NCBI RefSeq assembly: GCF_001540865.1
Contig: NC_033621.1
Location: 14,936,277-15,000,276 of the forward strand
Direction: 5' to 3'
From: Ananas comosus
Taxonomy: Eukaryota > Streptophyta > Magnoliopsida > Poales > Bromeliaceae
Length of the DNA: 64,000 bases
Shown: piece after piece, positions 10,481 to 36,657 of the stretch
How positions within the stretch are numbered: the first letter of the stretch is position 1
How the letters are laid out: the number at the start of each line of letters is the position of its first letter
The notes under the pieces: generated by a model
Seen by the model: the letters and a program-made list of their open reading frames with translations, nothing else
Told to the model about the DNA's origin: nothing
Databases searched by the model: none
Made by a program: the position numbers and the translations under genes

Positions 10481-11418
10481 ACAGTAGAGTGTAGACTGTT
10501 TCATACTGTCGGGTGCCGTCGCGGTTGACGGTGGATCCAGATTTCTATATCTTGCATTAGATTGTGCCAAGGGCATGTGAATTTTGTAGTTAGATCAGTT
10601 TGACCTTGTTACTTTGACTATAGTTTGTGAGAGCCTGATTGAGCTTGACAGAGACACGCTTGCATGCTCGGTTGGGTTGCGCCCACGAGTGCTGCTCCGG
10701 AGTCTTGTTACGTTGCTTTGCGTTGATGTCGTAGTAGTTCGGTTTGGACATTACTCTCTGCCGCCCGCCCACGAGGTGGTGTGCGGTGTAGTTGGACAGG
10801 CGGGACGGGTGTATCACAGTCCCTAGTGAGATTGGGTGAGTGAGATGCATATTTATATTTACAGATAGTTTGCATTGGTTAGCAATAGTAGAGTGGCATG
10901 TAACTGTAGATTTCTTAGCAGCTTTCCTTACTATCCTTTGTGCATATTTCAGTAGATTTAGTCGGTGAGCCGTTGAGGTCGGTGGCGATACCCACTGAGG
11001 ACTACTTGTTTTATAGTAGTTTTCACACCAAGTTGTTTACACCTTTTTGTAGAGTCTTCGTCTGCGGCTGCTGCTGTTGCTAACTTGGACCGTGGGAAGG
11101 GAGTCGCGAGTTAGATCCCTACTAGTCTTGTAGTTGTGTTACAGGAGGACCATCCAGAGGTAGTTTTTGGGGCTTTCTGTGTACATAATGTTATGTTGTT
11201 TTTGTACTCGCTGGAGTGAGTTGGGTTGTAGACTTTTATATGTACTGGACCCCTTTATGTTAATTATATATTTCCTTCAGTTTAGCAGCTCTATACTTCT
11301 GGTTGTGGCTATGATGTGATTACAGGTATAACTATCTCTTCGTATACACGGAGAACTCCTACGTATACGGCAGGTCTGTTCGCGTGCCCGAGAAAACGTA
11401 TGAATCTAGGGCATGACA

Positions 11419-12440: not shown

Positions 12441-13134
12441 GCCAACACGTCGGTCACAGTAGAGCTCATGATTTAATATATCTATAGATTATAGATATCT
12501 ATATCTATATAAGATCCAGGGGCAGTGGGAGTTTTTTTATTTTCCTTCTCTCTCTTCACATGTAGAGAAGAGGATTTAGAGTTTTTTTTAATCCAATTTA
12601 TTTTTTATTACAAAAAATTTAAATGTATAATTATTTATATCTAACTTTTAAATAGTTTAGATTGAATGTATTAAATATAAATTTTAATTTTATAATATTA
12701 TTCATTTAGATATAAATTGTACAATAAAAAATAAAAAAATTGATGGAGTTTAAGTTAATTTTTTATTTTACTAAATTTAGTTACGAAAATCGCATAAAAT
12801 ACACTAATTAAATCTATAAAGCTAAGCGACGCATTCAAATTTTGAAGTCAAAGTATTATTGATTGACTCAAATCTAATATACAGAAAAGCTGGATAATAA
12901 AAATAAAATTTTGCAAACTTGGATAGCTAATTTAAAATGGTTCATAATTCAAAAAAAATTATAAATTTTTACTTTGATTTAAATGTCAAACTTCAATGCA
13001 ATATTTATAATCTCATGAGCGATTAATTTTACATTTAAAATCTTTTGAAATATCTAAAATATGATTAATTGAGTTTTAATTTTAACAATTAGGCTTTCTA
13101 AAATTCATGTAATTTCCTTATATAAAATTACTAA
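12440..13134. other. AT-rich intergenic DNA
   Basis: Nothing recognisable is seen apart from a short ata/tat repeat near 12475-12510. Confidence 0.5.
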
Positions 13135-13419
13135 TTAAAAAAAGGACCAATTGCTTATATACCTCTGAAAAATTTTCGACTTTTTGATTTACCCCACTTA
13201 GAAGGCTAATATTGAAAGTATCTTTTTTACGTTCCAACCTATTTCAAATATACCTCTAGAGTTAAATTCTATAAATGAACTGTTAGCAATAGCTGTTATC
13301 TGTATGAAATTACTATTTTACCCTTTCAAATATATACTTCCACTATCACCGACTTTTCTTATTTGCCCTTAAATTAGGGTTACAAAAAAAATTTTAATTT
13401 TAGTCTTTTCAAATATACC

Positions 13420-16009
13420 TGTAGTGTTCCTGAGCTTTGGATAGGATTGGCTTCAGTATTATAGACTGGTCGACATCTCTGGAGAGTGTCGGACTGAGTC
13501 GGAGTCAATTCTGCACGAATTGGATACAGAATTGGACTCGGCGCACTCAAATAAGCAAAACTGAAGTTTTGCCAGATTCGGGCGCCCAGAACATTGTTAG
13601 GGTCGCCCAGAAACGAGTGTTGAATTTAACTGAAACTGGAAGCCAATTCGGATCCCATGTTCCGGGCGCCCAGAAGTAGGTCCGGAAATTTCACCTCGTG
13701 AATATCGCTTGCTTCGACGCGTGGCAGGGCGGTAGGTGAGTTCCGCCGGTGCCGTTTACGAGCGCAGCACACTGTGGGCGGAGAGTCCGAAGGGCCCGGT
13801 TTGTGCTGTCGGGATGTTCTGGTCGCCCAGAACATGGTTTTGGGCGCCCGGAAATGCCCGTTTCTGCAGGGACAGCAGATTGCAAGCTTTGTTCTTGAGG
13901 TTCATTTGATCCTATTTTTCACCCTATAAATAGCTGAGCAGTGTCCCTGGTGAGCTCTTTTCCTCCTTTCTTCACAGAGAAACCCCTTTTGGCATCTCAA
14001 ACCTCGGATTTGCTTCAAATTGCATCAAATTTCCATTGATCCAGCTTGATGGTGTGCTGATTGTGCAGTTCTTCAGCGTCGACCTCCAGTGTTTTGGCTC
14101 GTGCGTGACGTAGGAAGGTCGGATTTCGACGAAACTTGGTTTGCTGGATTCTAGACTTCTAGAGGAATCCACGAAGCCATGATTCGCAGAATTTGGTGAA
14201 GGTTAACTCAGTCGAACTCAGGTTTTCCTCTGCTGCTGTTGCTGTGGACAGAATTGTAAGTTTTTGAGTTCTTTTTGGGGTGAACTTTGGAAGCAGGGGC
14301 TTTGTGGAGTTGAGTCACGTTCCCCATCACCCAGTACTGGAATTGGGACCCTCTTCACCTGATTTGGAGTTCATTAGGTGAGTTTTGACATTAGAATTGG
14401 GATATTTTAGCTTAAGTGCTGTTTTGCTGAACTTCATCGTCGACTGTTAGTATTTCAGCTCGTACTCGACGTAGGAGCAACGGATTTCGACGAGACTTGA
14501 TTCGTTGGTTTCGGGACTGCGAGAGGAATCCACGAAGTCCTTACTTGTGGATTTTGGTGAAGGTTAGCTTGGTCGAAACCCTTCTCTTCTCTGCTGCTGT
14601 GTATTTGGACTGAATTGTGGATTTTGATGTTGATAGCTTGGAGATAGCTTGATTTTGAGACTCGGACATTTTCAGTCGATCCAGCAGGTTGTGCCGCAGC
14701 CGAGGGAGTTCCGTGCTGCCAGGAATTGCACTAGAGGTGGGTGTATCATCGGTTTCGCTCCTAAGTGCATGTTTAGTCGACGTGTATAGTTCGATTTTTG
14801 TATATCATGCTTTAATTCATCGATTAGCATCTTGAATGTAATATGAATGTAGAAGCATGCTGAAATGAATATTTAAATTATACATGTTGGACTTGAAATT
14901 TGACTTAGGAGAAAACCTGCGTTTTGACCCGTCATATGCTTAAACTACCAGATTTAGCTCTAGGAGCCGTGATTCGATTGTATCGTTGCAGTATCAGTGC
15001 GATGGATATCTGGGGTAGTTTAGAAGGCATTTACGCTCGTGCTGGGGTGCCGAGCTTATTTTTCAGCAGAGTTTAGGCTGTTTCGGGTCGTTGGGTGCCG
15101 TTCGGGTTAGCGGTGGACCCAGATTCTTGTTTTGGTCACAGATTGTGCCGAGGGCACGTGGGTTTGGTTTGTAGACCTGTTTTGACCCTGTTCACTTGAC
15201 TTTGGCTAGTTGGAGCCTGTTTGAGCTCGACAGAGATACGCTGCATACTCGGTTGGGTAGCGCCCACGAGTGCCACTCCGGAGTCAGGCTTTGTGCTTTC
15301 GCGTTGGTGTCGCTCATGCCAGTTGGACTTGCTCTCCACGGACCAGTTAGTGTGGATAGAGCCCGATAGTCGCAACGGGGCAGGGACGGGTGTATTCACA
15401 GTCCCGGGGACGGGTATGCTTACAGTCCCGATTGGATTGGGTCAGATTGGACATTTCCTACAGTTGGTTAGTGTAGAGCATGATAGTGTAGTGATCGATA
15501 GCGGTAGAGTTTATTTCCTGCTTTTCTGACTACTCTTGCTCCCTTCTGTAGACTTAGTGGGTGGACCGATGTTGTTTTGGGCGGTACCCACTGAGGACTA
15601 CTTGTTTTTACAGTAGTTCTCACGCCCAGTTGTTACCCCTGTTTTGCAGAGCCACAGGTTTCGGCTGCTGCGCCTTCCGCGGATCAAGATCGAGGCAAGG
15701 GCGTCGCGAGTTAGAGCCCTACCCGACGTGCTGAGCTAGAGGTGCCCCTACTGCAGGTAGATGTTTTGTTTCGAGTTTATGTACATAGTGGACCTAACTC
15801 GCCAGTGCGAGTAGCTTTGTATTTTGGATTTGGACTATTTATATAAAACTCAGTTGGTTTAGTTTCTGCTTTCTCTAGCAGCTCCCTACTACTGTTCGTA
15901 GTAGTGTTTGATTTACAGGTACAGCTATCGCTTCGTATACAGGGGAAATTTCTTTGTATACGGCGGATCTGTCGGCGTGCCCGGGGAAAGTGTAATCCGG
16001 GGCGTGACA
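13420..16009 (+). mobile_element. First (5') LTR of the gypsy array, 2,590 bp
   Basis: It starts tgtagtgttcctgag and ends ggggcgtgaca, and the primer-binding site follows within 9 bp. U3 carries five gggcgcccagaa-type repeats (13580, 13601, 13664, 13821, 13842) and a TATA box at 13925. The 5-bp word atacc precedes it (13415-13419) and recurs after the last LTR of the array (31009-31013). It resembles the middle LTR at both ends but differs visibly around 13865-14050 and 14625-14720. Confidence 0.93.
13925..13932 (+). promoter_or_regulatory. TATA box of the first LTR
   Basis: The word tataaata lies about 505 bp into the LTR and is conserved at the same place in the middle LTR (21700-21707). 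It is the likely promoter for the genomic RNA of internal unit 1. Confidence 0.7.
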
Positions 16010-16017
16010 GATTAAGT

Positions 16018-16029
16018 TGGTATCAGAGC
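16018..16029 (+). other. Primer-binding site, initiator tRNA-Met type
   Basis: The word tggtatcagagc is the standard plant retroelement complement to the 3' end of initiator tRNA-Met. It sits just inside the first LTR and starts minus-strand synthesis. Confidence 0.95.
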
Positions 16030-16308
16030 TTTGCTGTAGGTCGTGGGGACCTAGAAAACCTAAGTTTGGCAAACCTTAGGGAAGCAAGACGTGAGAGGCG
16101 TAATTTTATTGCGAAAGTCAATGATTATTTGTTTTAACTCCTCTTGGAGTAGAGTGAGTGACTGAAGGAGTTTCTATTTTGGCCTGAGAAATTATGTTGG
16201 CTGCAGACGACATAATTTTGAGGAGAAACAGGGGCCGCCTTCTAGACTTTCGTTTGATTGGGTCGAGAGTGTTTTGTTTTATCTGACCCCGATTTGTTCC
16301 TTTCAGCT

Positions 16309-19300
16309 ATGTATCGTCGCCGAGGCGACCGTCGTTGCGGGAGCGCGCCCAGTTGGCGCGGGATCATGCTGGGCCTTCTGAGAGATCTGAGCAGATGGAG
16401 CAGAGTACTCGGCAGGAGCAGGGTGACAGACTGGAGGCAAGTGCACCCCTGTTGTGGAGCCGAGTGTGCGACCTGAGACTAGCGTACCCCCTGATCTGAG
16501 TCCACAGTTGGCTGCCCTGACTGAGGTGACGAGACAGCAGGGGGAGCTATTGCAGAGGTTGTGTGAGAGGATAGCTCAGCCACCGAGTTCTGTACCGAGG
16601 GCACCAGAGTCGCCAGTTCCACCCCCGACTACTCCAGTGACAGCACCAGCTGCAGCAGTTCCTCCATCGGCAGCAGTTCCAGTAGCGCCAGTTGCGCCTG
16701 CTAGGGGGCCAGTACCGTTGACTGAGGCCGAGCAGGAGCGGTGGACGGAGAGGTTAGCTCGTTTTCGCCGATTTGATCCACCGATCTTCGATGGCAGAGG
16801 CACTGAGGCCTGGATTGTTGAGGGATGGGTCAGTGCGATGGAGAAGTTATTCGAGGATCTGTTCGTTCCAGAGGGGGAGCAGGTACCCCTGGGAGTACAC
16901 TGTCTAGCAGGTGATGCTCATGACTGGTGGCGGAGGACGAGGCGAGACCAGGGGCTAGTGGCGGCGCAGCTGAGTTGGGACGAGTTCTGTGGAATGCTGT
17001 TTGGGATGTTCTTTCCCAACAGTGTGAAGCAGAAGCTCGAGGAGGATTTGAGGAGGCTTCAGCAGGGAGATCGCCCAGTGCAGGAGTACGTTCGGGAGTT
17101 TACTCGACTCCTGAACTGTGTACCATTTGCGGCCAGAGACGAGGCGCACAGAGTATACATGTTCGAGCAGGGGCTGAGACCGGACATCTTCAGGTTAGTG
17201 CGGGCGCAGAGGTCGAGGACCCTGGATGCGTCCATAGAGCAGGCCCTATGGGTGGAGAGAGGTGAGGTGTCGCTGCAGGAGAGGACTCAGGCCGTGGGGC
17301 AGGGTCAGGACAGGAAGCGCCCCTTTCCAGATGACGGAGGGCAGTCGAGCAGCAGACGTCCGCCGAGACCTCCACGATCACGTTCTCAGGGTCGTGGGTC
17401 TTCGGGGCGTCAGCGTTCCAGGGGATCCCGTCAGCAGGGGCAGACTCAGAGGACGCCACAGTGTGTGATCTGCGGGGGACCACACTGGCCTCGGCAGTGC
17501 GAGCAGAGAGAGGGCAGGTGCTACGGATGTGGTCAGCCGGGACACATGAGGGCAGCTTGTCCCCGAGCAGCATCTCCAGCACCGTCATCAGCTTCGGCAC
17601 CACCAGCACCACAGCAGTCTTACGGAGCAGCACCGAGCTACCGCCAGGAGGACAGATCGTCTGTGCCGCGGTCGAGTGAGCGGCGACAGCAGGCTCCGAG
17701 TGGCAGGGTCTATGCAGCTCAGGTGGAGGACTCTTCAGCAGCCGACCGAGTGGTGGCAGGTATCACTTTGATTTCTGGCATTAGAGTTCGCACTCTTTTT
17801 GATACCGGTGCATCGCATTCCTTTGTTAGCCGAGCATTTGCATTGTTGCATGGTCTAGAGTTAGGAGCGTTGTCTCAGGCACGAGAGGTGCAGATCCCCG
17901 ACCATGTCTTGCAGGTTACAGAGTGTTGTTGGTCCTGTCCGGTGCAGTTAGACTCTTGGATCATGCCCGCAGACCTGTTGGTGTTAGGGCAGCTGCAGGA
18001 CTTCGACGTAGTGCTCGGTATGGATTGGCTGGCGCGGTACTATGCTACGATCGACTGTGGAGCGAGGACGGTGACGTTCCGCGAGCCAGGCCAGGAGGAG
18101 TTTACTTTCAGAGGCTGCAGGAGCACGCTGTTTGCCACCTGGATATCTTCGGCGAGGGCTCGACAGATGCTGAGCAGTGGGTGTATCGCTTTCCTAGCGA
18201 CAGTTGTGGAGGTACCTACGGCGGCGCCGAGACTCGAGGACATCCCAGTAGTCCGCGAGTTTTCGGATGTGTTTCCCCCTGAGTTGACGACATTGCCGCC
18301 GGAGAGGGAGATTGAGTTTGTGATTGATGTAGTTCCTGGAACTGCACCAATCTCAAAGGTACCTTACAGGATGGCACCGGCAGAGCTGAGAGAGCTAAAG
18401 GCGCAACTTCAGGATCTGATGGATAGAGGGTTTGTGAGACCCAGTGTGTCGCCTTGGGGAGCGCCGGTGTTATTTGTAAAGAAGAAGGATGGTTCGCTCA
18501 GGTTATGTGTGGATTACCGGGAGCTGAATAAAGTGACCATCAAGAACAAGTATCCTCTGCCGCGCATTGATGATCTATTCGATCAGCTGCAAGGATCTTG
18601 TGTCTTTTCGAAGATTGATCTCCAGTCAGGTTACCACCAGCTGAGGGTGAGGGCCGAGGATGTTCCCAAGACGGCTTTTCGGACTCGGTACGGGCATTAT
18701 GAGTTCACGGTGATGCCTTTTGGATTGACGAATGCCCCTGCCGCATTCATGGATTTGATGAACAGAGTGTTCAAGCCGTTCTTGGATAGGTTTGTGGTAG
18801 TCTTCATCGACGATATCCTGATTTACTCCCGGAGTGATGCTGAGCATGAGGAGCACTTGAGGATTGTGCTACAGCTTCTGCGCGAGAAGAAGTTGTATGC
18901 CAAGTTAAAGAAGTGCGAGTTCTGGCTACGGGAGGTTGCTTTCTTGGGCCACGTGATTTCAGCTGAGGGCGTAGCAGTGGACCCGAAGAAGATTGAGGCG
19001 ATTCGAGATTGGCCTAGACCGACGACGGTTACTGAGGTACGGAGCTTCCTGGGACTGGCAGGATATTACCGTCGGTTTGTGGAAGGCTTTGCGAAGCTTT
19101 CCACACCCCTCACGCGCTTGACGCGGAAGGGGATTCGTTTTGTCTGGAGCGACGACTGTCAGAGGAGCTTTGACGAGTTGAGATTGAGGTTGATGTCGGC
19201 TCCTATCCTTGCCCTTCCTGTTATGGGCGAAGGATTTGTGATCTACAGTGATGCATCGCACAGTGGACTTGGTTGCGTGCTGATGCAGCATGGTAGGGTG

Positions 19301-21148
19301 ATTGCTTATGCTTCACGGCAGTTAAAGGATTATGAGAAGAATTACCCTACGCATGACTTGGAGCTTGCCGCGGTGGTTTTTGCTTTGAAGCTCTGGCGGC
19401 ATTACTTGTACGGCGAGCACTGCGAGATTTTTACTGATCATAAAAGTCTCAAGTATCTGTTCACCCAAAAGGAGTTGAATTTGAGACAGCGCCGGTGGTT
19501 GGAGTTGCTGAAGGATTATGACATCAGTATCCAGTATCATCCCGGCAAGGCGAATGTGGTGGCAGATGCGTTGAGCAGGAAGGCAGTGCAGAGCTTGAGT
19601 ATGTTGATCACTCGGCAGAGACCGTTACTCGAGGAGCTGAGACGGCTGGGACTCGAGGTAGTGTCCCCTGGATTTACTGCGAGATTGATGTCTATGATCT
19701 TGCAGCCCACTCTGTTAGATAGGATTCGAGAGAAACAGAGTGGGGATCCACACTTGTCGAGGATTCGAGAGCAGCTTGAGAGGGGACAGGCCGAGGGCTT
19801 TGTTGTGGACAGTTCGGGAGTACTGCGGTACAGGGACCGACTGTGTGTACCTATGGATTCAGAGATCCGAGAGGACATCTTGAGAGAGGCTCACTGTTCA
19901 CCTTATACGGTTCACCCCGGTGGAACCAAAATGTATAAGGATTTAAAGGCTCAGTTTTGGTGGAATGGAATGAAGAGGGACATTGGTAGATTTGTGGCTC
20001 AGTGTCTGACTTGTCAACAGGTAAAGGCCGAGCATCAGGTACCTGCTGGCAAGCTTCAGAGTCTACCAGTGCCCGAGTGGAAATGGGAGCAGATCACGAT
20101 GGACTTTGTCGTCGGATTGCCGAGAGCACAGGGTGGTTTTGATGCGATTTGGGTGATAGTGGACAGACTGACCAAGTCTGCTCACTTCTTACCAGTGCAG
20201 ACCACTTGGTCCAGAGAGAGACTCGCTCAGTTGTACTTGGATGAGATAGTGAGGTTGCATGGCGTGCCCACTTCGATAGTATCCGACCGGGACCCGAGGT
20301 TCGTATCGCACTTCTGGAGGAGTCTTCAGACGGCCTTGGGCACTCAGTTGCAGTTCAGCACAGCATTTCACCCACAGACAGATGGTCAGTCAGAGCGGAC
20401 CATTCAGACTCTAGAGGACATGCTGAGGGCATGTGTCTTGGACTTTGGAGGAGGGTGGTATCGGCATTTGAGACTGGTTGAGTTTGCGTACAACAACAGC
20501 TATCAAGCGAGCATCCAGATGGCTCCGTTTGAGGCGTTGTATGGACGCAGATGTCGATCCCCTTTGTTTTGGAGTGATGTGGGTGAGAGGAGGACGCTTG
20601 GGCCTGAGATTCTGATTGAGGCTGAGGAAAAGGTAAAAGAGGCGCGACGGCACATATTAGCAGCCCAGAGTCGACAGAGGAGCTATGCTGATACCCGGAG
20701 ACGAGACTTGGAGTTCCAGGTGGGAGATCATGTTTTTCTTAAAGTCTCGCCGTCCAGAGGGATTCGCCGATTTGGTGTACGTGGAAAGCTCAGTCCACGT
20801 TTTGTAGGCCCTTTCGAGGTATTGGAGCGAGTCGGGCCAGTTGCTTACAGGATTGCTCTACCACCACGGCTAGCCGGCATTCATGATGTGTTCCACGTCT
20901 CGGCTTTGAGGAAATATGTGTTCGACCCCTCCCACGTGATCGACTTCACTCCGCTTGAGATTGGCGAGGACCTGAGCTACGAGGAGCGACCGGTGCGGAT
21001 TCTGGCTCGTGAGTCGAGGGAATTGCGCAACCGGGTCATACCCTTTGTAAAGGTGCAGTGGAGTAATCACGAGGAGCGGGAGGCGACTTGGGAGCCGGAG
21101 GCGATGATGAAGGAGTCCTACCCCTACCTGTTTGAGGCCCTGGATTGA
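16309..21148 (+). pseudogene. Gag-Pol of internal unit 1, gag start frame-broken
   Basis: This is a Ty3-gypsy polyprotein of the Tekay/Del chromovirus type. Relative to unit 2 it lacks one base near 16325 and another near 16448, so the Gag initiator ATG at 16309 runs into a stop after about 55 codons. From 16454 to the stop at 21148 the frame is open and carries Gag, two zinc knuckles (from 17462), protease DTGA, reverse transcriptase with FIDD, RNase H, an HHCC and D,D35E integrase, and a C-terminal chromodomain (from about 20990). Bases 16523-19426 match unit 2 except for one noticed difference at 19114. Beyond 19426 the two diverge. The locus could still supply protein if translation began downstream, but the normal start is lost. 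Confidence 0.9.
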
Positions 21149-21183
21149 GGTATGTGTACAGTTTCGCGGACGAAACTTTTTGT

Positions 21184-21195
21184 AGTGGGGGAGGA
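21184..21195 (+). other. Polypurine tract of internal unit 1
   Basis: The word agtgggggagga directly precedes the TG of the middle LTR and primes plus-strand synthesis. The inverted word gtttcgcggacgaaac at 21161-21176 lies just upstream and is conserved in unit 2. Confidence 0.85.
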
Positions 21196-23802
21196 TGTAG
21201 TGTTCCTGAGCTTTGGATAGGATTGGCTTCAGTATTATAGACTGGTCGACATCTCTGGAGAGTGTCGGACTGAGTCGGAGTCAATTCTGCACGAATTGGA
21301 TGCAGAATTGGACTCGGCGCACTCAAATAAGCAAAACTGGAGTTTTGCCAGATTCGGGCGCCCAGAACATTGTTAGGGTCGCCCAGAAACGAGTGTTGAT
21401 TTTAACTGAAACTGGAAGCCAATTCGGATCCCATGTTCCGGGCGCCCAGAAGTGGGTCCAGAAATTTCACCTCGTGAATATCGCTTGCTTCGACGCGTGG
21501 CAGGGCGGTAGGTGAGTTCCGCCGGTGCCGTTTACGGGCGCAGCACACCGCGGGCGGAGAGTCCGAGGGGCCCATTTTGTGCAGGCCGGATGTTCTGGTC
21601 GCCCAGAACATGGTTCCGGGCGCCCAGAAACGCCCGTTTCTGCAGGGGCACTGGATTGCGGCTATTTTTCCTGGGGCTTATCTGATCTATCCAGCAGCCT
21701 ATAAATAGCTGAGAAGCGCCCCCTTTGAGCTCTTTTACCTGTTCTTCACAGAGGACTTAGATTTTACTCCCAAATCCCTCAAATCTTTCCAATTTGCATC
21801 AAGATCCACCTCTCCAAGAATTGCAAGGTGCTGATTTTGCAGTTCTTCAGCGACGACCTCCAGTGTTTTGGCTCGTGCGTGACGTAGGAAGGTCGGATTT
21901 CAACGAAACTTGGTTTGCTGGATTCTTGACTTCCAGAGGAATCCACGAAGCCCTAATTTGCAGAATTTGGTGAAGGTTAGCTCAGTCGAACTCAGGTTTT
22001 CCTCTGCTGTTGTTGCTTTGGACAGAATTTGCCAATTTTTGATGTTTTCTTGGGGTGAACTTGGGAAGCAGGGGCTTTGTGGAGTTGAGTTATTTTCCCT
22101 ATCACCCAGTACTGGAATTGGGACCCTCTCCACCTGATTTGGAGTTCGTTTGGTGAGTTTTGACATTGGAATTGAGATATTTAAGCTTAAATGCTGTTTT
22201 GCTGAAATTCATCGTCGACTGTTAGTATTTCAGCTCGTACTCGACGTAGGAGCATCGGATTTCGTCGAGACTTGATTCGTTGGTTTCGGGACTGCGAGAA
22301 GAATCCACGAAGTCCTTACTTGTGGATTTTGGTGAAGGTTAGCTTGGTCGAAACCCTTCTCTTCTCTGCTGCTGTGTACTTGGACTGAATTGTGGATTTT
22401 GATGATTTTTATTGGATTTTTGGGTGCATTGTAAATCCAGATCTTAAGGGGCTTTGTTGCTGGTTTGAAGAGGTTTCCAGCAGTGTTGCTTGAGGATCCG
22501 AGACCCTATTGCTGCCAGGAATTGCATTAGAGGTGGGTGTTTCATCGGTTTCGCTCCTAAGTGCATGTTAGTCAACGTGTATAGTTCGAGTGTTGTAAAT
22601 CATGCTTTAATTCATCGATTAGCATTTTGAATGTAATATGAATGTAGAAGCATGCTGAAATGAATATTTAAATTATACATGTTGGACTTGAAATTTGACT
22701 TAGGAGAAAACCTGCGTTTTGACCCGTCATATGCTTAAACTACCAGATTTAGCTCTAGGAGCCGTGTTCGATTGTATCGTTGCCGAGTCAGTGCAATGGA
22801 TACCTTGGGTAGTTTAGAATGTATTTACACTCGTGCTGGTTCGCCGAGTGAATTTTTGCAGGGTCGTTCAGGCCGTTTCGGACTGTTGGGTGCCGTCAGA
22901 GTTGACGGTGGACCGTATCGCCTTTTTGGCGTCAGATTGTGCCGAGGGCACGTTACCTGTTGGTTGTTAGACCAGTTTAAGTCGATTACTTGACTTTGGC
23001 TAGTTGGAGCCTGATTGAGCTCGACAGAGATACGCTGCATACTCGGTTGGGTAGCGCCCACGAGTGCCACTCCGGAGTCAGGCTTGTGCTTTTGCGTTGG
23101 TGTCGCTCATGCCAGTTGGACTTGCTCTCCACGGACCAGTTAGTGTGGATAGAGCCCGATAGTCGCAACGGGGCAGGGACGGGTGTGTTCACAGTCCCAG
23201 GGACGGGTATGTCTACAGTCCCGATTGGATTGGGTCAGATTTGACATTTCCTACAGTTGGTTAGTGTAGAGCATGATAGTATAGTGATTTGTAGCGGTTG
23301 AGTTTGTTTCCTGCTTTTCCTACTATTCTTGCTCCCTCCTGTAGACTTAGTGGGTGGACCGATGTTGTTTTGGGCGGTACCCACTGAGGACTACTTGTTT
23401 TTATAGTAGTTCTCACGCCCAGTTGTTACCCCCGTTTTGCAGAGCCACAGGTTTCGGCTGCTGCGCCTTCCGCGGATCAGGATCGAGGTAAGGGCGTCGC
23501 GAGTTAGAGCCCTACCCGACGTGCTGAGCTAGAGGTGCCCCTACTGCAGGTAGATGTTTTGTTTCGAGTTTATGTACATAGTGGACTTAACTCGCCAGTG
23601 CGAGTAGCTTTGTATTTTGGATTTGGACTATGTATATGAAACTCAGTTTGTTTAGCTTCTGTTTTCTCTAGCAGCTCTCTACTACTGTTCGTAGTAGTGT
23701 TTGATTTACAGGTACAGCTATCGCTTCGTATACAGGGAAAATTCCTTTGTATACGGCGGATTTGTCGGCGTGCCCGGGGAAAGTGTAATCCGGGGCGTGA
23801 CA
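21196..23802 (+). mobile_element. Middle LTR of the gypsy array, 2,607 bp
   Basis: It starts tgtagtgttcctgag, ends ggggcgtgaca, and serves as both the 3' LTR of unit 1 (polypurine tract on its left) and the 5' LTR of unit 2 (primer-binding site on its right). It has no target duplication of its own. U3 type matches the first LTR, with the same gggcgcccagaa series from 21356 and a TATA box at 21700, but scattered differences show they are not recent identical copies. Confidence 0.93.
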
Positions 23803-23810
23803 GATTAAGT

Positions 23811-23822
23811 TGGTATCAGAGC
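23811..23822 (+). other. Primer-binding site of internal unit 2
   Basis: The word tggtatcagagc again complements initiator tRNA-Met, 8 bp inside the middle LTR. Confidence 0.95.
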
Positions 23823-24101
23823 TTTGCTGTAGGTCGTGGGGACCTAGGAAACCTAAGTTTGGCAAACCTTAGGGAAGCAAGACGTGAGAGGCGTAATTTT
23901 ATTGCGAAAGTCAATGATTATTTGTTCTAACTCCTCTTAGAGCAGAGTGAGTGACTGAAGGAGTTTCTGTTTCGGCCTGAGAAATTATGTTGGCTGCAGA
24001 CGACATAATTTTGGAGGGAAACAGGGACCGCCTTCTAGACTTTCGTTTGATTGGGTCGAGAGTGTTTTGTTGTATCTGACCCCGAATTGTTCCTTTCAGC
24101 T

Positions 24102-27100
24102 ATGTATCGTCGCCGGGGTCGACCGTCGTTGCGGGAGCGCGCCCAGTTGGCGCGGGATCATGCTGGACCTTCTGAGAGATCTGAGCAGATGGAGCAGAGT
24201 ACTCGGCAGGAGCAGGGTGACAGACTGGGGGCGAGTGTACCCCCTGTTGTGGAGCCGAGTGCGCGACCAGAGACTAGCGCACCCCCTGATCTGAGTGCAC
24301 AGTTAGCTGCCCTGACCGAGGTGACGAGACAGCAGGGGGAGCTATTGCAGAGGTTGTGTGAGAGGATAGCTCAGCCACCGAGTTCTGTACCGAGGGCACC
24401 AGAGTCGCCAGTTCCACCCCCGACTACTCCAGTGACAGCACCAGCTGCAGCAGTTCCTCCATCGGCAGCAGTTCCAGTAGCGCCAGTTGCGCCTGCTAGG
24501 GGGCCAGTACCGTTGACTGAGGCCGAGCAGGAGCGGTGGACGGAGAGGTTAGCTCGTTTTCGCCGATTTGATCCACCGATCTTCGATGGCAGAGGCACTG
24601 AGGCCTGGATTGTTGAGGGATGGGTCAGTGCGATGGAGAAGTTATTCGAGGATCTGTTCGTTCCAGAGGGGGAGCAGGTACCCCTGGGAGTACACTGTCT
24701 AGCAGGTGATGCTCATGACTGGTGGCGGAGGACGAGGCGAGACCAGGGGCTAGTGGCGGCGCAGCTGAGTTGGGACGAGTTCTGTGGAATGCTGTTTGGG
24801 ATGTTCTTTCCCAACAGTGTGAAGCAGAAGCTCGAGGAGGATTTGAGGAGGCTTCAGCAGGGAGATCGCCCAGTGCAGGAGTACGTTCGGGAGTTTACTC
24901 GACTCCTGAACTGTGTACCATTTGCGGCCAGAGACGAGGCGCACAGAGTATACATGTTCGAGCAGGGGCTGAGACCGGACATCTTCAGGTTAGTGCGGGC
25001 GCAGAGGTCGAGGACCCTGGATGCGTCCATAGAGCAGGCCCTATGGGTGGAGAGAGGTGAGGTGTCGCTGCAGGAGAGGACTCAGGCCGTGGGGCAGGGT
25101 CAGGACAGGAAGCGCCCCTTTCCAGATGACGGAGGGCAGTCGAGCAGCAGACGTCCGCCGAGACCTCCACGATCACGTTCTCAGGGTCGTGGGTCTTCGG
25201 GGCGTCAGCGTTCCAGGGGATCCCGTCAGCAGGGGCAGACTCAGAGGACGCCACAGTGTGTGATCTGCGGGGGACCACACTGGCCTCGGCAGTGCGAGCA
25301 GAGAGAGGGCAGGTGCTACGGATGTGGTCAGCCGGGACACATGAGGGCAGCTTGTCCCCGAGCAGCATCTCCAGCACCGTCATCAGCTTCGGCACCACCA
25401 GCACCACAGCAGTCTTACGGAGCAGCACCGAGCTACCGCCAGGAGGACAGATCGTCTGTGCCGCGGTCGAGTGAGCGGCGACAGCAGGCTCCGAGTGGCA
25501 GGGTCTATGCAGCTCAGGTGGAGGACTCTTCAGCAGCCGACCGAGTGGTGGCAGGTATCACTTTGATTTCTGGCATTAGAGTTCGCACTCTTTTTGATAC
25601 CGGTGCATCGCATTCCTTTGTTAGCCGAGCATTTGCATTGTTGCATGGTCTAGAGTTAGGAGCGTTGTCTCAGGCACGAGAGGTGCAGATCCCCGACCAT
25701 GTCTTGCAGGTTACAGAGTGTTGTTGGTCCTGTCCGGTGCAGTTAGACTCTTGGATCATGCCCGCAGACCTGTTGGTGTTAGGGCAGCTGCAGGACTTCG
25801 ACGTAGTGCTCGGTATGGATTGGCTGGCGCGGTACTATGCTACGATCGACTGTGGAGCGAGGACGGTGACGTTCCGCGAGCCAGGCCAGGAGGAGTTTAC
25901 TTTCAGAGGCTGCAGGAGCACGCTGTTTGCCACCTGGATATCTTCGGCGAGGGCTCGACAGATGCTGAGCAGTGGGTGTATCGCTTTCCTAGCGACAGTT
26001 GTGGAGGTACCTACGGCGGCGCCGAGACTCGAGGACATCCCAGTAGTCCGCGAGTTTTCGGATGTGTTTCCCCCTGAGTTGACGACATTGCCGCCGGAGA
26101 GGGAGATTGAGTTTGTGATTGATGTAGTTCCTGGAACTGCACCAATCTCAAAGGTACCTTACAGGATGGCACCGGCAGAGCTGAGAGAGCTAAAGGCGCA
26201 ACTTCAGGATCTGATGGATAGAGGGTTTGTGAGACCCAGTGTGTCGCCTTGGGGAGCGCCGGTGTTATTTGTAAAGAAGAAGGATGGTTCGCTCAGGTTA
26301 TGTGTGGATTACCGGGAGCTGAATAAAGTGACCATCAAGAACAAGTATCCTCTGCCGCGCATTGATGATCTATTCGATCAGCTGCAAGGATCTTGTGTCT
26401 TTTCGAAGATTGATCTCCAGTCAGGTTACCACCAGCTGAGGGTGAGGGCCGAGGATGTTCCCAAGACGGCTTTTCGGACTCGGTACGGGCATTATGAGTT
26501 CACGGTGATGCCTTTTGGATTGACGAATGCCCCTGCCGCATTCATGGATTTGATGAACAGAGTGTTCAAGCCGTTCTTGGATAGGTTTGTGGTAGTCTTC
26601 ATCGACGATATCCTGATTTACTCCCGGAGTGATGCTGAGCATGAGGAGCACTTGAGGATTGTGCTACAGCTTCTGCGCGAGAAGAAGTTGTATGCCAAGT
26701 TAAAGAAGTGCGAGTTCTGGCTACGGGAGGTTGCTTTCTTGGGCCACGTGATTTCAGCTGAGGGCGTAGCAGTGGACCCGAAGAAGATTGAGGCGATTCG
26801 AGATTGGCCTAGACCGACGACGGTTACTGAGGTACGGAGCTTCCTGGGACTGGCAGGATATTACCGTCGGTTTGTGGAAGGCTTTGCGAAGCTTTCCACA
26901 CCCCTCACACGCTTGACGCGGAAGGGGATTCGTTTTGTCTGGAGCGACGACTGTCAGAGGAGCTTTGACGAGTTGAGATTGAGGTTGATGTCGGCTCCTA
27001 TCCTTGCCCTTCCTGTTATGGGCGAAGGATTTGTGATCTACAGTGATGCATCGCACAGTGGACTTGGTTGCGTGCTGATGCAGCATGGTAGGGTGATTGC

Positions 27101-28937
27101 TTATGCTTCACGGCAGTTAAAGGATTATGAGAAGAATTACCCTACGCATGACTTGGAGCTTGCCGCGGTGGTTTTTGCTTTGAAGCTCTGGCGGCATTAC
27201 TTGTACGGCGAGCACTGCGAGGTTTTCACCGATCATCAAAGTCTCAAGTATCTGTTCACACAGAGGGAGCTGAATCTGAGGCAGCGCCGGTGGTTGGAGT
27301 TACTGAAGGACTATGACATTAGTATTCAGTATCATCCCGGCAGGGCGAATGTGGTGGCAGATGCGTTGAGCAGGAAGTCAGTGCAGAGCCTGAGTTTGAG
27401 GATTACTGAGCAGAGACCCCTACTCGAGGAGCTACAGCGGCTGGGACTCGAGATAGTACCCCCTGGGTCTACGGCGAGGCTGACGTCTCTAGTTTTACAG
27501 CCCACTCTGTTGGATAGGATCCGAGAGAAACAGAGTGGAGATCCGTACTTGTTGAGGATTAGAGAGCAGCTAGACAGGGGGCAGGCTGAGGGTTTTGCTT
27601 TGGACAGTTCGGGAGTACTACGGTACAGGGACCGACTGTGTGTGCCTGTGGATCCGGAGATTCGAGCGGATATTCTGAGAGAGGCTCATTGTTCCCCTTA
27701 TACGGTTCATCCTGGGGGAACCAAGATGTATAAGGATCTTAAGGCACGATTCTGGTGGCCTGGAATGAAGCGGGACATTGGCAGATATGTGGCTCAGTGT
27801 TTGACTTGCCAACAGGTGAAGGCCGAGCATCAGGTGCCTGCTGGCAAGCTTCAGAGTCTGCCAGTTCCCGAGTGGAAGTGGGAGCACATCACGATGGACT
27901 TCGTCGTTGGATTGCCTAGAGCGCAGGGTGGCTACGACGCGATTTGGGTGATAGTGGACAGACTGACCAAGTCTGCTCACTTCCTACCGGTTCAGACTAC
28001 CTGGTCCAGGGAGAGACTTGCGCAGCTATACTTGGATGAGATTGTTAGGCTGCACGGCGTGCCAGTGTCGATTGTATCAGACAGAGACCCGAGGTTTGTA
28101 TCCCAGTTTTGGAGGAGTTTGCAGACAGCCTTGGGTACACAGCTGCATTTTAGCACGGCGTTCCACCCACAGACAGATGGTCAGTCAGAGCGGACCATAC
28201 AGACTCTAGAGGACATGCTGAGGGCATGCGTCCTGGATTTTGGAGGAGGGTGGTATCGACATGTGAGACTGGTTGAGTTTGCGTACAACAACAGCTATCA
28301 AACGAGCATTCAGATGGCTCCGTTTGAGGCGTTGTATGGACGCAGATGTCGATCCCCCCTGTTTTGGAGTGATGTGGGTGAGCGGAGGACACTTGGACCG
28401 GAGATTCTACTTGAGGCTGAGGAAAAGGTGAGAGTCGTTCGACGACACCTTTTGACAGCACAGAGCCGACAGAGGAGCTACGCCGATACCAGGAGACGAG
28501 ACTTGGAGTTTCAGGTTGGAGATCATGTTTTCCTCAAAGTCTCGCCGTCCCGAGGGATACGCAGATTTGGAGTACGTGGAAAGCTTAGTCCACGGTTTGT
28601 TGGCCCTTTCGAGGTATTGGAGCGTATCGGACCGGTGGCTTACAGGATAGCTCTACCCCCGCGACTTGCTGGCATCCATGATGTTTTCCACGTCTCAGCA
28701 TTGAGGAGATACGTTTTCGATCCCTCTCACGTGATTGACTTCACTCCACTTGAGATTGGCGAGGATCTGAGATACGAGGAGCGACCGTTGCGGATTCTTG
28801 CTCGGGAGACGAAAGAATTGCGCAACCGGGTCATCCCGTATGTGAAAGTGCAGTGGAGTAATCATGATGAGCGGGAGGCGACTTGGGAGTCTGAGACGGT
28901 GATGAGGGAAGCCTATCCCTACTTGTTTGATGCTTGA
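24102..28937 (+). CDS. Intact Gag-Pol polyprotein with chromodomain, Ty3-gypsy Tekay/Del type
   Basis: The 1,611-residue frame has no internal stop. The ATG at 24102 (MYRRRG...) is chosen because the unit 1 homologue and the Gag fragment at 61751 start at the same place; the frame is open 17 codons further upstream. Approximate order: Gag 1-380; zinc knuckles at 386 ([13 protein letters not shown], one residue short of canonical) and 405 ([14 protein letters not shown], canonical); protease with DTGA at 499-502; reverse transcriptase about 686-920 with FIDD around 833-836; RNase H with catalytic D near 982; integrase with an HHCC zinc domain from about 1195 and D1266, D1327, E1363 (35 residues between the last two); chromodomain about 1558-1609. 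In the family, the chromodomain directs integration to heterochromatin. This unit appears coding-competent, though its two LTRs do not match in U3. Confidence 0.93.
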
Positions 28938-28975
28938 GTAGAGGTACGTTCAGTTTCGCGGACGAAACTTTTTGT

Positions 28976-28987
28976 AGTGGGGGAGGA
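28976..28987 (+). other. Polypurine tract of internal unit 2
   Basis: The word agtgggggagga abuts the TG of the last LTR and is identical to that of unit 1. The inverted word gtttcgcggacgaaac lies at 28953-28968. Confidence 0.85.
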
Positions 28988-31008
28988 TGTAGTATACTAG
29001 TATCCCTACACTTAGTATATATATATAAGTGTGTGTGTGAGGGTACGTGTGTGTGTGTGTGTGAGTGCACATGTGTGAGTATGTGTAATGCCATGTGGCA
29101 TCACCTCCCCCCCCTCTTTTATGCATGCAGGGAAGAGAGAGAGAGGAGTTTATCTCCTCTCTTCTCTCCTTTTCTCTTTCGTTCGGCCGTACCAAGGAAG
29201 CACGCGAGGGACGCCGCCGCGGAGCCGATTTCGCCGTCGACGTCGCACCGCAGAGCCGTTCGAACCTACGGTTGCTGCCGTTGCATCGTGAGGAGGCCGG
29301 GCGAGCGTGGATCTTCGCCGTTCTTGACGTCGCGCCAGTGCTAGTCGCCGTCGAGGTGGGTGTTCCATAGAATTGCTTCCTAATTTCCAAGCTTTTTCAA
29401 TTTCGAGCTAGTTGCTGTCCCTGCAGATTTCCAGCGTCGACCGTTGGCGTTTCGGCTCGTACTCGACGTAGGAGCGTCGGATTTCGACGAGGCTTGATTC
29501 GCTGGATTCAGGACTTCGAGAGGAATCCACGAAGCCCTTACTTGCCAGATTTCGTTGAGGTTAGATTGGTCGAATCCGTGCTGTACCTGACTGTTGCGAA
29601 TTTTGGGACTGAAACGGTGATTTGTGCTTTGTAGAGCGTGGTGTTAGCTCGACTCCCGGATTTGGAGGGTGTAGATCGACCAGCAGGTGGTGCTGCAGCT
29701 GTGAGGGTGTTTTGCTGCCAGAATTAGCGACTAAGGTGGGTTTACATCGGTTTATTCCTAAGTGTAGTAATAGTCGACATGTATGATTTTCTGTTCGGTA
29801 AATCATGTTGTAGTTCGTTTTTCATAATGATATCCTGGATAAATGCTGCATATATAACATGATTATTACCTTTTAAATATACATGTTGGACTGGGTTTAA
29901 ACTTAGGAGAAAACGCGATTGGAATCGACATATGTATTAAACTGCCTGATTTAGCTCTAGGAGCCGTTATAGAATTGTACTGTCGCAGCATACTGTAGAC
30001 GAGTACTCCAGGTAGTTTAGAATACATTTACGCTCGTGCTGGTATGCCGAGTGAATTTTTCTGAGGTCGTTTAGACTGTTTCGTACTAGTGGGCGCCGTC
30101 GGGACTGACGGTGGGCCCGGTTCGCCGTTTTGGCGTCGGATTGTGCCGAGGGCACGTTGTTTGTTGTATTTAGACTAGTCAGAGTTGTTACTGGACTTCG
30201 GCTTGAGTTAGAGAGCCTGTTTGAGCTCGACAGAGATACGCTGCATACTCGGTTGGGTAGCTCCCACGAGTGCCACTCCGGAGGCGGGCGCGGTGCTTTT
30301 GCGTTGGTGTCGCTCATGCCAGTTGGACTTGCTCTCCACGGACCAGCTAGTGTGGATAGAGCCTGATAGTCGCAACGGGGCAGGGACGGGTGTGTTCACA
30401 GTCCCAGGGACGGGTATGTTTACAGTCCCAATTGGATTGGGTCAGATTTGACATTTCCTACAGTCGGTTAATGTAGAGCATGATAGTGTAGTGGATGATA
30501 GCGATAGAGTGTACTTCCTGCTTTTCCTTCTATCCTTGCTCCCTTCTGTAGACTTAGTGGGTGACCGATGTCGTTTTGGGCGGTACCCACTGAGGACTAC
30601 TTGTTTTTACAGTAGTTCTCACGCCCAGTTGTTACCCCTGTTTTGCAGAGCCACAGGTTTCGGCTGCTGCGCCTTCCGCGGATCAGGATCGAGGCAAGGG
30701 CGTCGCGAGTTAGAGCCCTACCCGACGTGCTGAGCTAGAGGTGCCCCTACTGCAGGTAGATGTTTTGTTTCGAGTTTATGTACATAGTGGACCTAACTCG
30801 CCAGTACGAGTAGCTTTGTATTTTGGATTTGGACTATGTATATGAAACTCAGTTGGTTTAGTTTCTGTTTTCTCTAGCAGCTCCCTACTACTGTTCGTAG
30901 TAGTGTTTGATTTACAGGTACAGCTATCGCTTCGTATACAGGAAAAATTCCTTTGTATACGGCAGATCTGTCGGCGTGCCCGGGGAAAGTGTAATCCGGG
31001 GCGTGACA
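28988..31008 (+). mobile_element. Last (3') LTR of the gypsy array, 2,021 bp, different U3
   Basis: It starts tgtagtatactag and ends ggggcgtgaca, and is followed by atacc, which matches the word before the first LTR. From about 29410 onward it follows the other two LTRs (cgtactcgacgtaggagc, gttggactgggttt, the ctactactgttcgtagtag hairpin). Its first 400 bp are unrelated: a TA run, a (GT)n tract at about 29029-29085, and a CT-rich leader. The gggcgcccagaa repeats are absent. Confidence 0.92.
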
Positions 31009-31266
31009 ATACCCTTATATCATCACCAATATTTCTGATTAGCTCTTAAGTTAAGGGCAAAAGAGATATTTTAATTTTTTTTTTAACTCTAGTAGATATT
31101 TAACTTACATTTAACCCAAATTAACTTAACGGGCGGTAACTGAAGAGGTATTTTGGAATAACGAAGGAACATATGAGAGGTATATTGGAAAGAAAAAAAA
31201 AAAGAGGAGTAAATGAGAAATTTTCAAAGTTTTGAGAGGTATATAGGCAATTATCCCTTAAAAAAA

Positions 31267-33640: not shown

Positions 33641-34261
33641 AGGCATGGATATAGTACAGAATTAGAACTATATACTATTATCAGAATAACGGCATTTGCT
33701 ATTAGGTTTTCGGCCTTAGATGAAGGACTATGCAGTTAGGATGATAGATGCCCTAGGGGTTGAGTGGGTGGCCAGTTGAATATTATGATCTAACGGATGA
33801 AATGGTAAGGGATGATTTTTAAAGCAAAAAACTTCGATAGCAAACAAAGCTGTACTATCGATATATAATAGGCGGACTCTCTCTCTCTCTCTCTCTTCAT
33901 TAAGTTCTTCCATGTGCCGTCCCTCTTCTCTCTCCTCTATATATATAGTATATATGATATAGGATTACAAAAACTTAATAGAAAGAAAGCGCTTATACAA
34001 TACGATAGTATAGATAGTATAATACTGGACTATATATATATATCGAAGTAGAGAGAGAAGCCGATAACTATCTTATGATAGTACTATTCTTGGTAGCTAT
34101 GAATCTTTGTGTGCGTCAGATCAATATATTCAACTACACCACGTCACTCTAGAGGATGCAACTGTCATTCTAATGCAGCATTATCTTCATCAATAGGTCG
34201 CGAAATACTAATAGCAAGTGGTGTGGTAATCAGTTAAATTATATAGTAGACTATATATATA

Positions 34262-34800
34262 GATTGAGTAGGTCTTGTGTGTATTAGGCACGAGCTCCGC
34301 GCTGCTCAAGCCGTTTTCGATTGAGTTTCCGAATCGACGATTCGCTCCGTTAGAGCTTTGTATCTGGTATTTGAACTATTAAGAAATAAAATTTTGTAAA
34401 TTTTCGATATATTTATTACGCTAAGGATCAAAAATGGTTCAAGAATGCAACGCTGAAAATAAAATCTTAATAAAAGTGTTGATATAGCATGAAAATTTTC
34501 GATCAAAATATTGATTTGCTGTAAAGTATAAGATTTTAAAAATACAAAAATTTTATTTGATTATGACATTCTAAACCGTTAAACTTGAACGGTATACATC
34601 AACATTATAATGTTGATTTAACCCTTTCGATCGCTAGAATGATACCGAAAAAATCACAATAATTAATTTTGCTAGATAGTTCAAATATCGCTAGATCAAG
34701 TCTACGAGCCGAGGATCGTCGATATCGGAAGCGTCATTCATCGTAACGGGCATTAGAGACGAAAGCCCCTTGCTCTAATAGCACACAAGACTACTATATA
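34262..34800. mobile_element. Fold-back MITE inside the hAT element
   Basis: The arm gaatcgacgattcgctccgttag with ttttcgatatatttattacgctaaggatc is mirrored by ctagatcaagtctacgagccgaggatcgtcgat near 34690-34720. It belongs to the same family as 47998-48532 and 44387-44938. Flanking TA runs follow at 34801-34833. Confidence 0.6.
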
Positions 34801-34819
<19 letters not shown>

Positions 34820-34834
<15 letters not shown>

Positions 34835-35160
34835 TAGAGTTGGACTAGAAGCTAACTATTAGTACAAATTTCATTGTTGTACCATTTTTTAGCCTTTGGA
34901 TTAAACTCTTTTCAGCATCAATTTCTAACTATTGGATTTAAAATATTTAAACCCCGTGGGGAATAACATTAGGTGGGACTCAATTCTATACTGAACTAAT
35001 ATTATCCTAACCTACAATTTATTCATCAATGGTTAAAAAACTTGATGAAAAAGAGGCATTTTATATAATAAGTATATCCAGCTATTTATAATATATATAT
35101 TATAATATATAGTATACTATATATATATATATAGTATATATATATATTATATATAATAAT
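34820..35160. other. MITE-like remnant and TA runs
   Basis: ggactagaagctaactattagtac and the recurrent ccgtggggaataacattaggtggg resemble the other small MITEs. They are followed by TA-rich sequence at 35090-35170, before the right end of the hAT element. Confidence 0.4.
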
Positions 35161-36657
35161 ATATAATTTATTAGTTTTCGAGCTTTTCGAGCTTAATTCG
35201 AGCGAGTCAAGTAATACTCAAGTTCGGCTTGAAATTAATTTCGAGCCTAAATTTAGGCTCAAGTTTGCTCGAAATTAATTCGAGCCGAGCTCGAGCGAGC
35301 CGAATATCGAGCCGAACACGAGTCGAACACGAGCTGGCTCGCTCATTTGCTAGCCCTATGTGGGGATGATGAAGGAGGAGCTACATGCCATGGAGGACAG
35401 CGTTGTGGCTGCCATGGCGACTTTTCGCCATCAGTTTAGGCAGCTCTGCAGCGACTTCGCCCATCGCGAGGATGAGCGGAAGGTGTTGGTGGAGGACCTT
35501 GTCACCAGGGTTGACGAGGTCCAGGACCTCAAAATGCAGGTGATTATCCTCGAAAAGGCGGTGGCTTGCGGCGTCGAGATGCGAAAGGAGCACACCTCGA
35601 AGGTCTGTGTCCATGAACCCCAACACTTCAAGCGCACACGAGATAAGAAGAAAATTGATAATTTCTTTGACACATGGAGCACTATTTCAAAGCGTTGTGA
35701 TTGGAGGACGAAGAGGATAAGGTCAAATCGCAGCCATGTACCTCTCCGATGATGCCATAATGTGGTGGCGTCGACGGTCGGCAGAGGCGGAGTAAGGTTG
35801 CTACCAACTCACCACTTGGGAGGATTTCGTGCATGAGCTCAAGGCGCAATTCTACCCCGAGCATGTCGAATATTTGCGCGGAGGCAAATTCAACGGCTCA
35901 AACATTGTGGGACACGAAAGGAGTATGTCCAAGAATACATAAAACTAATGTTGAGATCTCCAACATAGCTGATGAGGATCGGTTGTTCTTCTTCCTAGAC
36001 GGTCTTCAACCATGGATAAACAAGGAGCTCGTGGGGCAAAATATGAAGGACCTAAACTCTATGATCGCTTTAGCGGAGAAATTATTGGAGGGGAAGCGAA
36101 ATGAGCGTGATCGAGGTGAACACCGAATGCGAGTTAGGCCAAAGGTGGGGAAGGGCATCAGAATTCAGAGGGTGCGAAGGGGCACAAGTAGAACCATGAT
36201 GCGAAAAGGCAAAAGCAGAATCCCGCCCCACCTTCTACAAAGATGTAAGGACTGAGATTTTTGACAGTGCTACTAAACTCTCTGTTGATGATGTTTATGT
36301 GTGTAATTTAATTACATAAGCACTCGTCAAGTTTCGGGCGAAAATGAGCTAAAATGGAGAAGATACGCGACTTTTAGTTTTCACTTAAGTGAATAGTAAC
36401 TCCGGTTTTCCGGAGAAGCCACGGAGTAGAGTTGGCTTCTGCCGCGTATCGGACTCCGTTCATATCAGTCCAATAGCTCGTTTCGACTGGTTCAGCTGTT
36501 TTGGAACCAATGGCACTGACGGAATTGGATTTGGATGCACGGATTTCGAGAAAAAGGGGTTTAATGGTTTTAGCATATAGTCGTCTATATGCGGGTTTTG
36601 GTGGAACCTTGGAGGGATGGTTTTGTCGCAAATCGGAAACCTTTTCGGGTGAAACGA

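Follow-up and report, generated by a model that had tools for sequence, protein, structure and literature searches.

Tandem LTR-retrotransposons with two internal regions, three LTRs and one short outer target duplication (TSD) have already been published, among them TLI1 and TLI2 of rice and other plants, the latter inside a MULE that carries its own 10-nt repeat (PMC11899658, in the sections drawn on here). In TLI1, confirmed by four spanning reads, the internal regions are 94% and the LTRs 85-89% identical, and those sections leave open whether single-TSD tandems form by dimeric insertion or by recombination (PMC11899658). Complexes explained by template switching in Triticeae (Angela), rice and maize also have two bodies, a common middle LTR and an outer TSD, their outermost LTRs being highly alike (PMC1950507), and the complexes of Devos et al. 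2002 (described via PMC1950507) have unlike outer LTRs and a chimeric middle LTR without flanking TSDs. The same order of LTRs and internal regions, the one feature on which the likeness rests, is reported for 10 cases in A. thaliana (PMC5379124, in the part cited).

The array described here shares the layout of the TLI elements, lies inside a MITE and is known from an assembly. What sets it apart is that its three LTRs derive from different variants while both bodies contain a nearly identical coding core, a combination that indicates either recent recombination or an assembly error. Neither a near-identical core between divergent flanks nor an unrelated U3 is described for TLI1/TLI2 in the cited sections of PMC11899658, and unrelated outer U3s under one TSD are likewise undescribed in the portions used of PMC1950507, PMC11899658, PMC5379124 and PMC7251063. 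The array occupies positions 13420-31008 of the window, that is, the whole stretch of 64,000 nt of Ananas comosus NC_033621.1 that was analysed, and comprises two gypsy bodies placed head to tail, the middle LTR being common to both. Its features and surroundings are as follows.

13135..13143, no strand: left 9-bp duplication of the host MITE, TTAAAAAAA
13144..13419, no strand: left MITE part, last bases ATACC (13415-13419)
13420..16009, + strand: LTR1, U3 type A, TG...CA
16018..16029, + strand: primer-binding site (PBS) 1, TGGTATCAGAGC
16309..21148, + strand: gag-pol of unit 1, broken near the gag start
16523..19426, + strand: core S, copy 1 (gag into RNase H)
19427..21195, + strand: 3' part j1, with the end of RNase H, integrase, a chromo-like end and the PPT (21184-21195)
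21196..23802, + strand: LTR2 (middle), U3 type A, internal blocks unlike LTR1
23811..23822, + strand: primer-binding site 2
24102..28937, + strand: gag-pol of unit 2, open
24318..27221, + strand: core S, copy 2
27222..28987, + strand: 3' part j2, with the PPT (28976-28987)
28988..31008, + strand: LTR3, U3 type B in the first ~425 bp
31009..31257, no strand: right MITE part, first bases ATACC (31009-31013)
31258..31266, no strand: right 9-bp duplication of the host MITE, TTAAAAAAA
57321..57811, no strand: second MITE copy without an LTR element, the empty-site reference

An earlier note on this DNA had described this order, and the sequence bears it out in each of its parts: LTRs and internal regions alternate with an LTR at both ends, the perfect ATACC pair abuts the outer edges and no duplication occurs at the edges of LTR2, which are the features that define single-TSD tandems in the cited sections of PMC11899658. 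In keeping with the note, the middle LTR has a PPT, AGTGGGGGAGGA, directly 5' and a primer-binding site, GATTAAGT-TGGTATCAGAGC, directly 3', each identical to its counterpart in the other unit; the host MITE retains its own 9-bp duplication; and the U3s of LTR1 and LTR3 do differ. The second MITE copy, with a 9-bp pair of its own (TTTTTTTTA), aligns across the joined array flanks at 423 of 522 aligned positions (81%; the join retained 2 surplus bases of the left ATACC), with an 18-column gap a few bases left of the insertion site, and both outer array ends therefore lie at one target point. A 9-bp pair thus accompanies each of the two MITE copies, a duplication length from which we take the host MITE to be putatively of MULE type. 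The TSD, the continuity of PPT and PBS and the unoccupied MITE relative together support the single integration site that the note had proposed. Elsewhere in the window, which has 76 ORFs of at least 110 aa, a search for host genes by Pfam, run on 12 frames including the two gag-pol, gave no match in the 10 others, and the window yielded no tRNA genes (ARAGORN) and no Rfam families at gathering score.

Both units have the Pfam order gag, protease, RT, RNase H and integrase, and this order, with the TG...CA LTRs, PBS, PPT and 5-bp target duplication, identifies Ty3/gypsy elements. The integrase core rve scores 29.2 and 29.5 bits, under the Pfam cut-off of 32.6, its zinc-binding neighbour lies well above the cut-off, and the C-terminal Chromo match, on which membership of the chromoviruses would depend, reaches 21.5 and 20.0 bits, below the Pfam cut-off of 25.1. 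The PBS is presumably a tRNA-Met site, and the long LTRs would at most suggest the Tekay clade. The gag-pol of unit 2 is open over 1611 aa counted from the first in-frame ATG; unit 1 lacks two single bases that unit 2 has, so that its first ATG is not in frame, and the frame is open from 16427 (1573 aa) up to the stop. Used as a protein query, residues 200-1628 from unit 2 returned 7,905 proteins among 7,926 scored candidates; among the 120 matches listed, the top identity was 72% (over 30% of the query), the best whole-query identity was 58%, and none was close enough to be a sister copy.

All three LTRs differ from each other, so the puzzle raised in the note about the outer pair stands and extends to the whole set. 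The U3 of LTR3 (type B) is unrelated to that of LTR1 and LTR2 (type A), and LTR1 and LTR3 show just 69.6% identity across LTR1 positions 14400-15209, but the final ~800 bp of LTR3 is 95% like both other LTRs; the 3' block of LTR2 is 95.0% identical to LTR3 and 96.1% to LTR1. Between LTR1 and LTR2 identity is 89.7% overall, in blocks from 49% to 97%. The earlier note had missed this last difference. Over the final 800 bp the three are nearly star-like, with 15, 16 and 24 private differences, and changes of C-to-T type are no commoner than the reverse (5 v 7 in LTR1, 6 v 6 in LTR2, 8 v 8 in LTR3), so the differences look inherited and not like decay at the site. The stretch that LTR1 and LTR3 share without a difference at their 3' ends measures just 44 bp, which leaves little if any native LTR3 to see, and the idea that a native right LTR was converted but retained its 3' end is not supported. 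Dating by LTR divergence was rejected, as no pair of LTRs resembles one produced together in a single round of reverse transcription.

The coding core S differs between the two bodies at one position (19114/26909) in 2,904 bp. It is the longest run with at most one difference, and when the 267 columns that differ were shuffled 2,000 times over the 5,188 columns of the internal alignment, no such run exceeded 328 columns; its edges are sharp (16522/16523 and 19426/19427), and both changes of partner, i1 to j1 and i2 to j2, flank it. Part i, left of S, has 23 differences in 513 aligned positions (4.5%), and part j, right of S, has 232 in 1,719 (13.5%; j2 and j1 are 86.5% identical). Over 571 codons open in both, j1 and j2 give dN 0.048 and dS 0.62 by NG86, and dN 0.050 and dS 0.51 by YN00; with dN near 0.05 and dS of 0.5-0.6, the j versions must have diverged as working lineages before meeting here. 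In part i, 7 CG/CHG sites are lost in unit 1 only versus 0 in unit 2 (12 versus 7 when the first U3 block, the LTR 3' end and i are pooled), and these i-part losses, with the broken gag start of unit 1, hint at decay of i1 and an older left part. At substitution rates of 1.3e-8 and 6.5e-9, the one core difference corresponds to about 13,000-26,000 years, with an upper bound of about 74,000-148,000 years, figures that serve as a limit only and would mean nothing had the assembly collapsed the core. The faster rate is the grass constant mentioned in the part of PMC7251063 used here. The near-identity of the core copies had also gone unremarked in the earlier note.

The reading that we favour, with confidence somewhat short of even, is that the array is a real, young tandem Ty3/gypsy insertion at one MITE site, made by recombination of at least two, and probably three, variants of one family. 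On the simplest path, an element L1-i1-S-j2-L3 (L for LTR) would have met DNA of another variant, L2-i2-S-j1, in the form of a one-LTR circle or a tandem; one crossover within the common core S would have joined them, and conversion would have made the two S copies alike. L1 and L3 would have been united by an earlier DNA-level exchange, either between cDNAs before integration or through a 3'-half conversion afterwards. The outer ATACC and the unoccupied MITE relative count for this account, as does the long-read-verified single-TSD tandem of rice (PMC11899658, cited sections), and opening a one-LTR circle in S would give precisely the segment S-j1-L2-i2, with both partner changes next to S. 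Also on its side are the contrast of S with parts i and j, the dN and dS values of j1 and j2, and the nearly star-like LTR ends whose differences look inherited. Counted against it are that two events are needed, that the S copies must have been nearly identical beforehand or converted at the crossover, that an assembler reusing a collapsed S repeat gives the same topology, and the hints of decay in i1. Capture of a one-LTR circle, which the note had offered as an explanation, fits only in part: the topology agrees provided that the exchange took place within the coding core instead of an LTR, and capture of this kind would explain LTR2 and the duplicated core, but not why LTR1 is unlike LTR3.

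An assembly artefact, in which reads of at least two elements were joined through the collapsed core repeat, is a serious rival, if on balance unlikely: a young L2-i2-S-j1-L2 elsewhere would form a graph loop traversed once at the array locus. In its favour, a single base distinguishes the S copies whereas all their surroundings differ, the partner changes sit on either side of S, the window is draft sequence that contains gaps of 100 N and 25 N besides a lone N, and short-read artefacts that are hard to exclude are blamed for the lack of systematic tandem reports (PMC11899658, in the sections cited). Yet there is no N within the array, the outer TSD and the MITE halves are intact, the S copies do differ at one base, a structure of this kind has been verified by long reads (PMC11899658, same sections), and an artefact alone leaves the difference between LTR1 and LTR3 unexplained, each LTR being continuous with its own flank.

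Rather less probably, the integrated molecule may itself have been multi-parent DNA: three variants active together would have supplied cDNAs and a one-LTR circle, these would have recombined before integration, as double-stranded DNA and within the gag-pol core, and integrase would then have attached LTR ends from two different parents to a single target. Comparably doubtful is an origin in which a tandem of unlike family members arose first, by a dimeric transcript, recombination or repair, and later received a recent gene-conversion tract of ~2.9 kb that homogenised the cores. The sharp edges of the near-identical tract and the direct order of units ~7.8 kb apart suit it, and conversion is predicted in 25% of LTR pairs across fifteen plant genomes (PMC7251063, in part), but it takes one event more and does not explain three unlike LTRs.

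Template switching between co-packaged RNAs, yielding a dimer integrated once (the model of Sabot and Schulman), accounts for the single TSD, the common middle LTR and the two bodies; it is nevertheless improbable, because the model gives alike outer LTRs (PMC1950507), and the unrelated U3 of LTR3 and the low LTR1-LTR3 identity over 14400-15209 contradict it unless LTR3 was replaced later. Fusion of two neighbouring insertions by LTR-LTR recombination (Devos type) gives the observed order with unlike outer LTRs, but a matching outer TSD is not expected from it and LTR2 should be chimeric; both flanks correspond to a single MITE site, and LTR2 in its 3' block is no nearer to LTR3 than to LTR1, which makes this very improbable unless the two elements had inserted at an identical 5-bp target. 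Unequal LTR recombination after a single insertion, which the note had also proposed, here taken as crossing-over between sister or homologous chromosomes, would yield the order and keep one TSD but predicts equally similar units and LTRs all of one type, and as the sole cause it is contradicted by between-unit divergence of 0.03% to 51% by block, dS of 0.62 in j versus 0.0014 in S, and the unlike LTRs, so that of all the explanations it deserves the least credence.

The locus carries a warning that collapsed repeats can mimic a tandem array, and LTR divergence cannot date elements of this kind. Under the favoured reading of a recombinant tandem, the parents are divergent enough for every segment to be told apart, which allows the exchange to be located within the coding core instead of an LTR; if confirmed by reads, the locus would be a direct test of circle capture versus dimer insertion versus later conversion. 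Should the integrated molecule have been multi-parent DNA, the insertion would carry two bodies, of which one has an open gag-pol, and would preserve natural evidence that retrotransposon DNAs recombined outside the chromosome.

The Ty3/gypsy array of the pineapple window consists, on self-comparison, of two internal domains (the left and right units, 1 and 2) and three LTRs:

13420-16009, LTR1
16010-21195, internal 1
21196-23802, LTR2
23803-28987, internal 2
28988-31008, LTR3
13135-13143 and 31258-31266, 9-bp duplications of the host MITE, enclosing the array

Both internals start with GATTAAGT-TGGTATCAGAGC and have in common at their 3′ ends the polypurine tract AGTGGGGGAGGA, followed by TGTA, while ATACC stands on either flank of the array. 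Self-comparison and flank inspection thus bear out the LTR-internal-LTR-internal-LTR order, outer ATACC and MITE with its 9-bp duplication (a length usual for MULE elements) described in an earlier note, as do the same sequences at the ends of both internals its placing of the middle LTR between a polypurine tract and a primer-binding site. A second, unoccupied MITE copy (57321-57811, or 57312-57820 with its 9-bp duplication TTTTTTTTA) aligns through the insertion junction of the array (81% identity, 522 aligned positions); an 18-column gap interrupts the alignment a few bases to the left of the insertion site. Its continuity across the junction, together with the outer ATACC, indicates that the two outer ends of the array represent one integration point. 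A nested insertion agrees poorly with this, as does the fusion of two separate insertions.

The units share a coding core, S (gag into RNase H; 16523-19426 and 24318-27221), that differs at 1 of 2,904 positions, a synonymous change in CG context (19114/26909). Directly left of it (segment i) 23 of 513 positions differ and directly right (segment j) 232 of 1,719; in 2,000 shuffles of the difference columns the longest stretch with at most one difference never exceeded 328 positions, versus the 2,904 observed. Right of S, the low dN relative to dS (0.048 and 0.62 by NG86; 0.050 and 0.51 by YN00) indicates that the two 3′ parts diverged under selection in working elements before meeting here, and the dS of 0.0014 within S points to a very recent common ancestor of the cores. 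An assembler passing twice through a collapsed core would give the same picture, which we consider a real possibility, though less likely than not: the window is a draft, with a 100-N gap (2337-2436), a 25-N gap (36658-36682) and a lone ambiguous N at 3166, but the array itself contains no N.

Both units encode gag, protease, RT, RNase H and integrase, in that order (Pfam), the integrase core model and a chromo-like end scoring below Pfam cut-offs. Unit 2 has an open frame of 1611 aa, counted from the first in-frame ATG (24102); in unit 1, the ATG at 16309 is out of frame through two single-base losses near the gag start and meets a stop after 55 codons, the frame being open beyond.

In an ordinary insertion both LTRs are copied from one reverse transcript, and no pair among LTR1, LTR2 and LTR3 resembles such copies. 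LTR1 and LTR2 are 89.7% identical over 2,582 aligned positions, unevenly so by block (limits set by eye from the identity profile; LTR1 positions):

first 381 bp, 97%
13801-14119, 75%
14120-14619, 93%
14620-14719, 49%
14720-15019, 96%
15020-15209, 75%
15210 to LTR end, 96%

The first 425 bp of LTR3 are unrelated to either, confirming that the outer LTRs differ in U3 type, as noted earlier; its identity to them is 69-70% over LTR1 positions 14400-15209 and 95% in the last 800 bp, where the three LTRs carry 15, 16 and 24 private differences, nearly a star. Within 14635-14750, 27 positions unite LTR1 and LTR3 to the exclusion of LTR2 (other pairs, 10 and 18), and within 15020-15209, 30 unite LTR2 and LTR3 to the exclusion of LTR1 (other pairs, 11 and 22). 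The closest partner switches between these two mid blocks, and each LTR has the appearance of a mosaic of family variants. A C-to-T type excess is absent among polarised changes in the last block of all three, so these differences look already present in the parents; against this, CG/CHG sites lost in one unit only number 7 in unit 1 and 0 in unit 2 over the 513-bp stretch, and 12 and 7 once the first U3 block and the LTR 3′ end are counted as well, an imbalance that may reflect a greater age of the left part of the array.

The last 800 bp (15210-16009) are conserved above the rest among the three LTRs and may be a functional region; LTR2 matches an old LTR at 9.65-10.48 kb by 77% there and 68% upstream, but for the other old remnant (10498-11418) identity to LTR2 over this region is only 67%. 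Remnants of old LTRs from the family span 7545-11418, including an LTR 3′ end at 10480, after which the 3′ part of a different LTR starts at 10482; 7545-7643 weakly resembles the LTR3 U3 (70.6%). With the unit 2 internal domain as query, blastn gave no match in the window outside 16000-29000. A motif of ~200 bp recurs in family LTRs in varying copy number:

14054-14255 and 14415-14616, LTR1, two copies, spacing ~361
21828-22029 and 22190-22391, LTR2, two copies, spacing ~361
29412-29613, LTR3, one copy
8531-9148, old LTR near 8.5-9.1 kb, about three copies, spacing ~204

Elsewhere, 33698-39800 holds two ~3-kb tandem copies, 77% identical, one each side of the 25-N gap.

In segment notation, with L for the LTRs, the array reads L1-i1-S-j1-L2-i2-S-j2-L3. 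Removal of S, the unit 1 j segment, LTR2 and the unit 2 i segment would leave a two-LTR element, the removed segment being a complete one-LTR unit. One crossover within S between a circle of this composition and an element at the site would yield the order, two S copies, no inner duplication and an LTR2 of another kind. Capture of a one-LTR circle, as proposed earlier, would account for these features but leave over the difference between LTR1 and LTR3, which would require further DNA-level exchange: two cDNAs recombined in S before integration, or a later exchange that replaced j together with most of the right LTR. A native LTR3 remnant is not visible beyond the last 44 bp. Template switching as published predicts alike outer LTRs (PMC1950507) and fails here, where the outer LTRs are unlike. 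Unequal LTR recombination within a single insertion, the other earlier proposal, is contradicted as the sole cause by the divergence pattern along the units.

The kind of structure is already known. According to the portion of PMC11899658 drawn on here, plants commonly carry single-TSD tandems that share an inner LTR; Nipponbare rice gave 74 candidates (66 clearly LTR-element related), 28 with clear tandem structure, 10 of these with perfect 5-nt TSDs; the LTRs of one rice locus, TLI1, are 85-89% identical, four spanning reads confirm it, and the formation mechanism is left open. Another, TLI2, sits in a MULE, the pineapple array in a MITE with a 9-bp duplication. Beyond the cases described there, the outer U3s of the present array are unlike and its two units share a core within divergent flanks; this mosaic make-up is the interesting part, provided that the assembly is correct.
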